Shown: positions 14,574-18,948 of the stretch, in pieces
How the letters are laid out: every line of letters starts with the position of its first letter
Numbering within the stretch: position 1 is the first letter of the stretch
Source of the DNA: Variovorax boronicumulans NBRC 103145
GTDB taxonomy: Bacteria > Pseudomonadota > Gammaproteobacteria > Burkholderiales > Burkholderiaceae_C
DNA: 64,000 bases
Direction of reading: 5' to 3'
Assembly (NCBI RefSeq): GCF_001591345.1
Contig: NZ_BCUS01000019.1
Coordinates: 1 to 64,000 of the forward strand
The notes under the pieces: generated by a model
The model's input: the letters and a program-made list of their open reading frames with translations, nothing else
Told to the model about the DNA's origin: nothing
The model's database searches: none
Made by a program: the position numbers and the translations under genes

Positions 14574-17267
14574 CTACAGCGGGTAGGTCACGAGCTTGAA
14601 GTCCGGGTCCTCGGGGAAGGACTTCACCGAGAAGCCCAGCCGCCGCACCAGCTTGAGCATGTCGGGGTTGCCGGCCAGCACCAGCCCGTCCATCTCGGAA
14701 AGGCCGCGGTCGCGCGCCACGTCGATGATGCTTTCCATCAGGCGCGAGCCGATGCCCTTGCCGCTGAACTCGTCGGCCACCACGAGCGAGAACTCGCAGC
14801 TGGTCTGGTCGGGGTTGGTGATGTAGCGCGACACGCCCACGATGCGCTCGCTCTCGAGGATGCTGCCGTCGGGCGCGGTGCTGCGCTCCATCACGGTGGC
14901 GACCAGCGCCATCTCGCGGTCGTAGTCGATGAGCGTGAAGCGCGACAGCATCGACGGCGGCAGTTCGTGGAAGCGCGAGACGAAGCGGAACCACCGGCTC
15001 TCGGGCGACAGCCCCTGCACCAGCGCCTGCAGCATCTGCGCGTCGTTCGGATGCACCGGCCGCACGACGTACGCGCCGCCACCGGGCAGCGGCCATTCGC
15101 GCCGGTAGCGCGCGGGGTACGGCATGATGGCCAGGTGCTGGTAGCCGTTGCCCACCGGGCCCGCCACGGCCTGCGTGCTGCTGTCGACCACGATGCGCGC
15201 ATCGACCGACACCGCGCCGTGCTCGTCCACGATGATGGGGTTGATGTCCATCTCGCGCAGCTCGGGAAGCTCGCACACCATTTCGGACACGCGCAGCAGC
15301 ACGTCCTCGATGGCTTCCATGTTCACGGCGTTGGCGCCGCGCCATTCGCCCAGCGTCTCGGCCACGCGCGAGCGCTCGATGAGGTGGCGCGCCAGGAACT
15401 GGTTCAGCGGCGGCAGCTCCATCGCGCGGTCGTTCATGAGCTCGATCATGGTGCCGCCCGCGCCGAAGACGATCACCGGGCCGAAGGGCTGGTCGGTGAC
15501 CAGGCCCACGTAGATCTCGCGCCCGCGCCGCGCGCGCACCATCTTCTGCACGGTCACGCCGTTGATGCGGGCATCGGGTGCCAGGCGCGCCACGCGCTCC
15601 ATCATCTCCAGGTAGGTGTCGCGCGCGCTGGTGCCGTTCATCACGTTCAGCGCCACGCCCTCGACGTCGGACTTGTGCGAGATGTCGGGCGAGTCGATTT
15701 TCAGTGCCACCGGAAAGCCCAGCTGCGTGGCGATCATCATGGCCTCGTTGGCGCTGCGCGCAAGCAGGGTGCGCGTGATCGGGATGTGGAAGCACGACAG
15801 CAGCGACTTCGATTCCATCTCGGTCAGCACCTTGCGCCGCTCGGCCAGCACGCTCTCGATGAGCAGGCGCGCGCCGTCGATGTCGGGCTTGGCCAGTGCC
15901 GACAGCGGCGGCGGCGTCTGCTGCAGCAGCTGCTGGTTCTGGTAGAAGGCCGCGATGTTGCCGAAGGCACCGACGGCCGCCTCGGGCGTGCGAAAGCTCG
16001 GAATGGTGGCCTCGGCCAGCACGGCCCGCGCATTGCCCACCGAGGCATCGCCCATCCAGCACGACAAGAGCGGCTTGGGCATGGGGCGCGGAATGTCGGC
16101 CAGCGCGCGCGCCGTGGCGGCTGCGTCGACGCCGGCCTTGGGCGAGAAGATGGCGAGCACGCCGTCGATCTGGCTGTCGGCCGAGGCCGTGTCGATGGCG
16201 GCGCGAAAGTGCGCGGGCGTGGCGTCTTCCGACAGGTCGATGAGGTCGGTGAGCGAAGCCAACGCCGGCAGCGAGGGCTGCAGCGAGCGCTGTGCGGGGG
16301 CCGAGAGGCGGCCCAGGTCGAGCCCGATCTCGTTGATCCAGTCGGCCGCGAGCACGCCGGGGCCGCCGCCGTTGGTGACCACCGCCAGCCGCTTGCCCAC
16401 CGGCCGGTAGCGCGAGGCCAGGCACTTGGCGGCCGAGAACAGCTCGACGAAGGAGCGCACCCGCACCGCGCCCGCGCGGCGCAAGGCGGCGTCGAACACG
16501 TCGTCGCTGCCCACGATGGCGGCGCTGTGCGTCTGCGCGGCCTCGTTGCCGGCCGGCTTGCGGCCCGCCTTGAGCACCACCACCGGCTTGGCGTGCGAGG
16601 CCGAGCGCAGCGCGCTCATGAAGCGGCGCGCATCGGCAATGCCTTCGAGGTACACGATGATGCTGTGCGTGCTCGAATCGTTGGCCAGGAAGTCGAGCAC
16701 CTGCGGAATGTCGACCGAGGTGTGCGGGCCGAGCGACACCACGCTGGAAAAGCCCACGCCGTTCTGCCGCGCCCAGTCGAGCATCGAGGCCGTGAGCGCA
16801 CCCGACTGCGACACCAGTGCCAGCGGCCCGGTGCGCGCGAGCGGGCCGGCCACGCTGGCGTTCAGGTGCAGCGGCGGGCGCTGGAAGCCCAGCGAATTCG
16901 GGCCCAGCAGGTGCACGCCTTCGCGGCGCGCGATCTTGCGCCACTGCGCGGCCTGCTCGGCGGCGATGCCGGTGGAGATGACCACCGCGGCCTTGCAGCC
17001 GATGCGCCCCGCAATCTCGAGGGCAGCCGCCACGTCGTGCGGCGCCAGCGCGATCAGCGCCAGGTCGGCATGCGTCTGCGCCAGCTCTTCGAGCGTGCCC
17101 TGGGTGCGCACGTCCAGAAAGCGCAGCGTGCCGTCGAAGCGGTCGGCCCGGAAGGCTTCGCGCAGCGTGCGGCCCAGGGCGGTCTGGCCCCCCGGATCGC
17201 TGGGCTGGCCGACGAAGGCCACGATCGACGCCGGGGCGAACAGGGGGGTCAGGAAATGCTTGTCCAT
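14574..17267 (-). CDS. Bifunctional acyl-CoA synthetase (NDP-forming)-like / GNAT protein acetyltransferase (Pat family)
   Basis: 897 aa, very near the length of enteric Pat/YfiQ. Domains in order: CoA-binding (about 10-105, with CKAAVVISTG), succinyl-CoA-ligase-like (145-290, QSGALTASMLDWA), ATP-grasp (about 460-690, GFPVALKIDSPDISHKSD) and a C-terminal GNAT domain (about 720-897, with VADEFSGKGIGSRLMESIID). A His in the phospho-His region (AAQTHSAAIVG, residue 247) is retained; in some Pat proteins this His is lost and the synthetase half is only regulatory. The expected role is Nepsilon-lysine acetylation of metabolic enzymes such as acetyl-CoA synthetase. It is divergent from hom. Confidence 0.88.
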   Translation of the reverse strand: MDKHFLTPLFAPASIVAFVGQPSDPGGQTALGRTLREAFRADRFDGTLRFLDVRTQGTLEELAQTHADLALIALAPHDVAAALEIAGRIGCKAAVVISTGIAAEQAAQWRKIARREGVHLLGPNSLGFQRPPLHLNASVAGPLARTGPLALVSQSGALTASMLDWARQNGVGFSSVVSLGPHTSVDIPQVLDFLANDSSTHSIIVYLEGIADARRFMSALRSASHAKPVVVLKAGRKPAGNEAAQTHSAAIVGSDDVFDAALRRAGAVRVRSFVELFSAAKCLASRYRPVGKRLAVVTNGGGPGVLAADWINEIGLDLGRLSAPAQRSLQPSLPALASLTDLIDLSEDATPAHFRAAIDTASADSQIDGVLAIFSPKAGVDAAATARALADIPRPMPKPLLSCWMGDASVGNARAVLAEATIPSFRTPEAAVGAFGNIAAFYQNQQLLQQTPPPLSALAKPDIDGARLLIESVLAERRKVLTEMESKSLLSCFHIPITRTLLARSANEAMMIATQLGFPVALKIDSPDISHKSDVEGVALNVMNGTSARDTYLEMMERVARLAPDARINGVTVQKMVRARRGREIYVGLVTDQPFGPVIVFGAGGTMIELMNDRAMELPPLNQFLARHLIERSRVAETLGEWRGANAVNMEAIEDVLLRVSEMVCELPELREMDINPIIVDEHGAVSVDARIVVDSSTQAVAGPVGNGYQHLAIMPYPARYRREWPLPGGGAYVVRPVHPNDAQMLQALVQGLSPESRWFRFVSRFHELPPSMLSRFTLIDYDREMALVATVMERSTAPDGSILESERIVGVSRYITNPDQTSCEFSLVVADEFSGKGIGSRLMESIIDVARDRGLSEMDGLVLAGNPDMLKLVRRLGFSVKSFPEDPDFKLVTYPL

Positions 17268-17433
17268 GCCCTAGTTTGCCCGGATCGGGGCGTGCCGCAA
17301 GCACCGCGTGTACACTCGCCGGCTCATGTCGTGCCTTTCACTTTCCCCCGTTGCAGCATCCAGCGCCGCCGTTGTCGGCCGCACGATGCCGTTCGCCGCC
17401 TGCGTGCGAACAAGCGACGCAGTGAATGCACGA

Positions 17434-17466
17434 ATGATTACCACCATGACCGCCGCGGCCCCCTGA
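17434..17466 (+). CDS. Putative leader peptide MITTMTAAAP of the hom attenuator
   Basis: Ten-codon open frame ATG ATT ACC ACC ATG ACC GCC GCG GCC CCC TGA, 120 bp before hom. It carries three Thr, one Ile and two Met codons, and these three amino acids are exactly the products made from homoserine. Its stop codon lies inside the first stem of the attenuator (17455-17465), as in classical leader peptides. No strong ribosome site is visible, and an overlapping short frame (ATG at 17426) also ends here. The peptide is inferred from layout, not from homology. Confidence 0.6.
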   Translation: MITTMTAAAP

Positions 17467-17550
17467 GCACGCGCAGGGTGGCCGCTCCGGCAGCCACCTG
17501 GTGTCTCTTCTCCCGAATGAACGAAACCCAGCTGGCAGCTGGGTTTTTTT
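17455..17550 (+). promoter_or_regulatory. Predicted transcription attenuator controlling hom
   Basis: Three mutually exclusive pairings can be drawn by hand. Stem 1:2 joins GCGGCCCCCTG (17455-17465) to CAGGG-T-GGCCGC (17474-17485), eleven pairs with one bulged T. Antiterminator 2:3 joins GCCACCTGG (17493-17501) to CCAGCTGGC (17528-17536), eight of nine pairs. Terminator 3:4 joins AAACCCAGCT to AGCTGGGTTT, followed by T7. A ribosome stalled at the Thr/Ile/Met codons (17437-17451) would block 1:2 and favour 2:3, allowing read-through into hom. This is the thr/his/trp attenuation logic; no experiment supports it here. Confidence 0.65.
17524..17550 (+). terminator. Intrinsic terminator in the hom leader
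   Basis: Perfect 10-bp stem AAACCCAGCT/AGCTGGGTTT (17524-17533 with 17537-17546) with a GGC loop, running into seven T (17544-17550) and, after one G, five more. It stands 36 bp before the hom start codon and has no gene end just upstream on this strand, so it must act within the hom leader. Confidence 0.85.
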
Positions 17551-17586
17551 GTTTTTGTCCTGTTCGTTCGTTGTTTGGAGAAGCCC

Positions 17587-18948
<1,362 letters not shown>

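Follow-up and report, generated by a model that had tools for sequence, protein, structure and literature searches.

An apparent conserved RNA switch upstream of hom2 in Variovorax and its relatives, with predicted wiring unlike that of textbook attenuators

A conserved RNA switch, which from sequence comparison and folding models would be wired unlike textbook attenuators, appears to be located upstream of hom2, a homoserine dehydrogenase gene, in Variovorax and its relatives. The switch is very probably a ribosome-mediated transcription attenuator, through which hom2 would answer a shortage of Met, Ile or Thr.

The hom2 locus and its leader reading frame

The homoserine dehydrogenase encoded in the window (the whole 64-kb stretch of DNA that was analysed) shares 97% identity with a protein of Variovorax sp. 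Root473. Another full-length hom, hom1, was found on a different contig of the genome and is 56% identical to the window copy; it is located directly behind an upstream gene and, by eye, adjoins an apparent threonine synthase gene. The window gene is the second hom copy (hom2) of a Variovorax-like genome, and the gene 3' of it is on the opposite strand. A divergent gene for a CoA-ligase/GNAT fusion (14574-17267, minus strand) starts ~44 bp from the hom2 -10 box.

All of the sequence elements named in an earlier note on this DNA were found in place. The codons for MITTMTAAAP and the stop codon occupy 17434-17466, the stem formed by 17455-17465 and 17474-17485 comprises 11 pairs with a single bulged U, 17493-17501 is able to pair with 17528-17536 at 8 of 9 positions, and a 10-bp hairpin (17524-17546) runs into T7 (17544-17550). 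The hairpin is the sole terminator-like site in 16900-18100, where shuffles give 0.5, and folding of 17400-17600 beats shuffled sequences (z -3.9; 1 of 200 shuffles equally good). As the Met/Ile/Thr leader, stems and hairpin recur before hom in relatives, the attenuator region goes beyond chance. The features of the region, all on the forward (+) strand, are as follows.

17311..17316, +: putative -10 promoter element TACACT (comparison of 112 rows, i.e. aligned sequences)
17326..17466, +: leader ORF of 46 codons plus stop, probably leaderless (frame open in 112/112 rows)
17434..17451, +: regulatory codons Met-Ile-Thr-Thr-Met-Thr (stop-10 to stop-5)
17455..17465, +: segment A, which includes bases 1 and 2 of the leader stop codon (A:B covariation)
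17474..17485, +: segment B, partner of A or C (A:B covaries; B:C has strong energy but hardly covaries)
17489..17501, +: segment C, partner of B or D (C:D covariation)
17504..17525, +: segment F, anti-Shine-Dalgarno, approximate limits (F:G covariation)
17524..17536, +: segment D, terminator 5' arm and loop, partner of C (terminator scan, covariation)
17537..17550, +: segment E, terminator 3' arm and T7 (terminator scan, D:E covariation)
17560..17583, +: segment G, including the hom2 Shine-Dalgarno sequence GGAGAAG at 17577-17583 (paired in predicted folds)
17587..18948, +: hom2, homoserine dehydrogenase without a detectable ACT domain (Pfam)

The leader ORF had been read in the earlier note as ten codons long, but the frame extends, open and conserved, as far upstream as an ATG at 17326, giving 46 codons. 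Starts were sought in the compared rows as the ATG closest downstream of a -10-like hexamer, with no requirement for frame. The hexamer is TACACT in 98 of 112 rows and TATACT in 9, and 108 rows had an open start in frame under this initial pattern; after inspection of L082, L104, L109 and L113 the pattern was widened to include TATGCT and TAAACT, and all 112 then fit. The distance from hexamer to ATG is 6-12 nt (mode 9). As two collections supplied the same record for at least 8 of the 112 rows, tests were performed on sets of 17 rows (<88% identity) and 32 rows (<90% identity). The frame is open from the -10-linked ATG to the stop, over 31-50 codons, in 112/112 rows and 17/17 non-redundant rows. 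The latter are all in frame at 12 distinct distances, the distance from start to regulatory tract differing only by multiples of three, and in the frame control on these 17 rows the +1 frame contains a stop in 17 and the +2 frame in 5. The leader stop is kept at segment A, as TGA or TAG. A consensus scan found no canonical promoter and no consistent -35 box was seen among the compared rows. The spacing from the -10 element suggests that the leader transcript is leaderless.

Thr, Ile and Met account for 108 of the 119 residues at stop-10 to stop-4 in the 17 non-redundant rows, namely M 14 at stop-10; I 13 and M 4 at stop-9; T 11, I 4 and S 2 at stop-8; T 15 at stop-7; I 11 and M 6 at stop-6; T 15 at stop-5; and T 11 at stop-4. 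Met makes up 26 of 119 residues in the tract compared with 22 of 509 in the N-terminal part of these rows, the positions being homologous and not independent. Codon choice is narrow in the tract part of the 112 redundant rows, where Thr is ACC in 460 of 481 cases and Ile is ATT in 199 of 204, against 11 of 115 for Ile in seven genes of the window. The tract is expanded by whole codons in L071 and is without Met in L109. The Met/Ile/Thr leader proposed earlier stood in part: the Thr/Ile/Met tract is conserved, but the fifth residue of the window tract, Met, is shared by just 6 of 80 rows (window included), most relatives having Ile, and was rejected as a general regulatory codon. As the frame starts upstream at 17326, the first Met of MITTMT (17434) is an elongator codon; Met sensing is thereby retained and the Met part of the proposal strengthened.

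A small G+C-rich hairpin (17400-17422) lies within the leader ORF just 5' of the Met-Ile-Thr tract, and several relatives were seen by eye to have a hairpin of different sequence near the matching place. It is possibly a pause signal.

Distribution of the leader and of the two hom copies

A search for hom in 111 relatives retained 80 loci, and a Met-Ile-Thr-like leader was found before hom in the window and in 79 of these loci (L058, which came without upstream sequence, was excluded from the count); the leader in L059, for example, is MMTTITTAAT. The absence of the frame or stems from relatives, which the earlier note had named as grounds for abandoning the proposal, was looked for and conservation was found. 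The frame, stems and terminator are all conserved, and an attenuator-like region whose leader codons specify the homoserine-branch end products recurs before hom.

A covariance model built on 33 rows was used with strict filters, by which diverged members may be missed, to search 299 genomes of the family and 399 of the order. In the family, 37 genomes match with E values no higher than 0.001, and in 33 the match is strong (E ≤1.3e-17); in the order there are 8 matches, 3 strong, all in the same family, and 5 weak. A hom gene was detected by tblastn in 28 of 30 family loci examined, the exceptions being L106 and L108, and was also present at a further three strong-match family loci. The five weak order matches (L121-L125) and three of the four weak family matches (L129-L131; G186 was left out) had no hom nearby (tblastn, E up to 0.001) and were set aside as chance. 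In a search for further copies of the element in its own genome, the best other place had an E value of 0.055, and the two best were seen by eye to be without a hom leader.

Two hom matches were found in 41 of the 299 family genomes, comprising 31 of the 33 strong-leader genomes versus 10 of the 266 others (hand count; Fisher test run), and two hom copies and the leader thus go hand in hand. That the window gene is a second hom copy had escaped the earlier note. Genomes G047, G164, G143 and G227, which have two hom matches and no strong match to the model, carry a different Thr/Ile/Met leader with its own hairpin before the second copy, and in G227 the model gives a weak match (E 0.056) at this other type of leader. 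By eye, the two matches are fragments of a single gene in G043, G104 and G171, and in G275 and G291 both copies are of the hom1 type; the second match in G098 has 40% identity. Leaders of another kind, e.g. IAITITTTT and STITMITM, each with its own hairpin and without a strong match to the model, were seen in the 330 nt upstream of the second hom in L161, L173, L174 and L175, from two other genera.

The two copies also differ in their protein products. Pfam detected an ACT domain in hom1 of this genome and none in the window hom2, and, more widely, ACT (PF01842, E up to 0.01) was found in 19 of 19 hom1 rows versus 0 of 51 hom2 rows. The hom2 rows are the window, 42 rows of <90% identity drawn from 77 full-length sequences, and 8 from whole genomes, and the hom1 rows were picked from loci examined; rows from whole genomes had been assigned to hom1 or hom2 before the Pfam scan, using identity, upstream region and C-terminus by eye. 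In an unrooted tree of 36 of the 70 rows, which included two long rows, hom1 and hom2 were separated by one branch with support of 100/100. No Met/Ile/Thr leader was seen in the 13 hom1 upstream regions inspected. The C-terminal part of hom2 is still ACT-like by eye, with the usual motif absent.

L106 and L108, both from the same genus, retain the leader, terminator and start region but have lost the catalytic part of hom2. The leader is followed there by an ORF of 114 aa resembling, by eye, the ACT-like C-terminal end of hom2; this ORF may have stayed behind as a relic or may encode a free regulatory protein.

Covarying pairings and the modelled switch

Helices were scored by comparing the duplex energy of the segments' own partners with that of 2000 partner permutations. 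The earlier note had called for compensatory changes to be sought in three stems, and all three were found to covary: A:B (z -3.1, 1/2000 permutations in 17 rows; z -4.8 in 32 rows), C:D (z -3.7 in 17 rows and -5.3 in 32 rows, reached by 0/2000 permutations) and D:E (z -3.3, 7/2000 in 17 rows; z -3.8 in 32 rows). In C:D, exchanges are visible by eye, with GCGGCC facing GGCCGC in L097 and GCTGCC facing GGCAGC in L078 and L083, and the long pairing is altered in L104. Two pairings absent from the note were also identified, B:C (17474-17482 with 17493-17500) and F:G (about 17504-17525 with 17560-17583). F:G is the helix with the strongest covariation (z -5.5 in 17 rows and -6.5 in 32 rows, reached by 0/2000 permutations), which sits in the last 18 nt 5' of the hom start (z -6.0), G outside these 18 nt having no covariation (z -1.1). 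B:C rests mainly on complementarity and hardly on covariation (z -0.15, 827/2000 in 17 rows; z -2.0, 53/2000 in 32 rows). It connects the leader with the terminator, a link from A:B to C:D that the note had not given.

Control pairings showed no covariation in 17 rows (A:C +1.6, B:D 0.07, F:C 0.09) or in 32 rows (A:C +2.4, B:D 0.8, C:G -0.15); A:D in 17 rows (-1.4, 183/2000) and D:G in 32 rows (-1.8, 84/2000) lean the same way as the helices and are not significant. A pairing of the leader codons with GGUG after C was tried and rejected as not significant (179/2000 permutations). In L098, L099, L106 and L110, inspection by eye showed one more hairpin, placed after the terminator and before the Shine-Dalgarno sequence of hom2.

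Alternative folds, which the note had suggested computing, were obtained for the 17 rows by blocking a ribosome footprint in a thermodynamic equilibrium model running from the Met-Ile-Thr codons to the T-run, codon 1 being the Met at stop-10 in most rows. In this model, the probability of the terminator helix, P(D:E), is 0.34 when the A site is at codon 2, 0.25 at codon 3, 0.26 at codon 4, then 0.51 at codon 5, 0.77-0.92 at codons 6-10 and 0.75 at the stop, and it is 0.49 without a ribosome. When A is covered B:C and D:E form, and when the ribosome is stalled at M-I-T-T, A:B and C:D form, the antiterminator C:D sharing D with the terminator D:E. The rise in P(D:E) occurs in 112/112 rows and exceeds 0.2 in 69 of these and in 12 of the 17, so that a ribosome-dependent switch is clear in 12 of 17 rows. 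The rows that do not switch are L005, L025, L076 and L127, which stay at 0.88-1.0, and L078, which stays at 0. At the stall, P(D:E) went from 0.25 in natural sequences to 0.84 once A to C was shuffled, and the rise of 0.64 in natural sequences compares with -0.004 in shuffled ones, being larger in the natural sequence in 15 of 17 rows. When the whole ORF was folded (14 of the 17 rows), P(D:E) was lowest, at 0.47-0.51, at stop-7 to stop-10, where the codons are mostly M, I, T, T; it was 0.74-0.92 at stop-6 and later positions, 0.58-0.72 at stalls upstream of the minimum and 0.68 without a ribosome; the contrast between stall and later positions is thus smaller.

These results are consistent with the following course of events. 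Transcription would start at or beside the ATG at 17326, as the -10 box indicates, and the leader would be translated without a Shine-Dalgarno sequence. With amino acids plentiful, the ribosome would cross the Met-Ile-Thr tract into segment A, B would pair with C, D would be free for E, and transcription would end in the T-run. A ribosome waiting at the Met, Ile or first two Thr codons would leave A free, and formation of A:B would release C so that C:D blocks the terminator and hom2 is transcribed. F:G is probably a second lock: where D:E has formed but the polymerase reads through, F would cover the hom2 ribosome-binding site. In the modelled read-through transcript, all 17 rows have a largely paired Shine-Dalgarno sequence (mean unpaired 0.13, maximum 0.40) and F:G has a mean probability of 0.96. 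As D:E and F:G dominate the full-length transcript at equilibrium, winning in 15 of 17 rows regardless of the ribosome, the ON state must be kinetic, and the second lock would need kinetic persistence of C:D.

The strength of the F:G covariation could also indicate that control is mainly translational, with leader translation setting access to the hom2 Shine-Dalgarno sequence via F:G and the terminator hairpin secondary. This is rather unlikely, though several rows fit it. Three (L082, L104 and L109) keep the leader and C:D and have a poor T-run, which makes termination doubtful, as if control had moved to translation there, and two of the four leaders of the other type (L161 and L175) have folds in which the hom Shine-Dalgarno sequence pairs with a stretch behind the terminator. 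However, a T-run is present in most rows listed, including the window, and C:D is in direct competition with D:E. The modelled ribosome, moreover, shifts F:G strongly in only two of 17 rows, L078 and L082, and at an early stall the Shine-Dalgarno sequence is still mostly paired in both (unpaired 0.18 and 0.31).

An attenuator of the classical trp/thr type, in which the stalled ribosome covers segment 1, 2:3 is the antiterminator, and termination follows when the ribosome is missing or has reached the stop, would have the same parts list (Thr/Ile leader, stop in segment 1, terminator), and the earlier note had drawn a direct analogy with the enteric thr and trp operons. This is improbable, as the terminator is overlapped by C:D and not by B:C, and in the model covering A gives B:C and D:E, i.e. 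termination. With B:C supplying the link from A:B to C:D, the model comes out wired in the opposite sense to trp, and the direct analogy was not supported. A ligand- or protein-binding structured RNA with an incidental ORF, to which the strong nucleotide-level conservation and the covariation of A:B, C:D and F:G might point, is scarcely credible given a start-to-tract distance that changes only in multiples of three, a stop that shifts between TGA and TAG without loss, the whole-codon expansion in L071, a frame open in 112/112 rows and the lack of an Rfam family.

Relation to known systems and significance

The earlier note knew of no described counterpart, and no Rfam family was found to match. 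The 64-kb window has 0 matches at the gathering score in Rfam 15, and the best match in 17300-17700 was P9 (E 0.08, 19.2 versus 43 bits). No description of hom attenuation in Burkholderiales was found in the open-access literature searched, though comparative surveys may still mention one; the word homoserine is absent from PMC2965389, PMC8632094 and PMC10219788, and the word threonine from PMC4833913. The Rfam Thr_leader family gave no match in 17300-17700 even at E up to 10.

The enteric thr leader (thrL) has Thr and Ile codons before homoserine-pathway genes, together with a terminator. The hom2 leader resembles it in its Thr codons (mostly ACC) and Ile codons, the homoserine-pathway gene downstream and the terminator, but differs in that Met codons are included, the gene is a stand-alone second hom, the modelled wiring is inverse, the ORF is probably leaderless, and the Shine-Dalgarno sequence would be covered by a pairing. 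In enteric trp and his leaders, a stalled ribosome covers the first segment and the antiterminator forms, and an untranslated leader leads to super-attenuation. These leaders and the hom2 model have in common a series of hairpins that exclude one another and are read by a translating ribosome; in the hom2 model, unlike in trp and his, terminator probability without a ribosome is intermediate (0.49, or 0.68 with the whole ORF). PMC1183508 gives eight ACC codons for the Escherichia coli thr leader and an additional hairpin for the his leader.

Leader ORFs at or near the RNA 5' end are described in two further papers. The attenuator leader-peptide ORF of Sinorhizobium meliloti trpL starts at the 5' end of the RNA (PMC7298713), as the -10 spacing suggests for hom2. 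The trpL leader has Trp codons, is 14 aa long and is from Alphaproteobacteria. The Corynebacterium glutamicum ilvBNC leader covers several amino acids, and its +1 is a single nucleotide away from the start codon (PMC11857589); an RNA starting nearly at the start codon would be shared by hom2, but the codons of ilvBNC are branched-chain ones. A start-codon change is reported to lower ilvBNC expression by 80%, whereas partial derepression would be predicted for the hom2 leader.

A broader reading is put forward tentatively, as a close call: a leaderless leader peptide would sense the three homoserine-branch end products through reversed wiring with a second lock on the ribosome-binding site, and RNA control would have replaced allosteric feedback in hom2, where ACT decayed, with hom1 keeping ACT and having no such leader. 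It would give a natural case of enzyme feedback in one gene copy and RNA control in the other. The switch would also be a further attenuator, from betaproteobacteria, controlling the enzyme at the point where Met, Thr and Ile synthesis branches, and would show a stall acting by keeping segment 1 free. Its wiring predicts that loss of the leader start codon would lead to partial derepression, whereas trp-type leaders super-attenuate.
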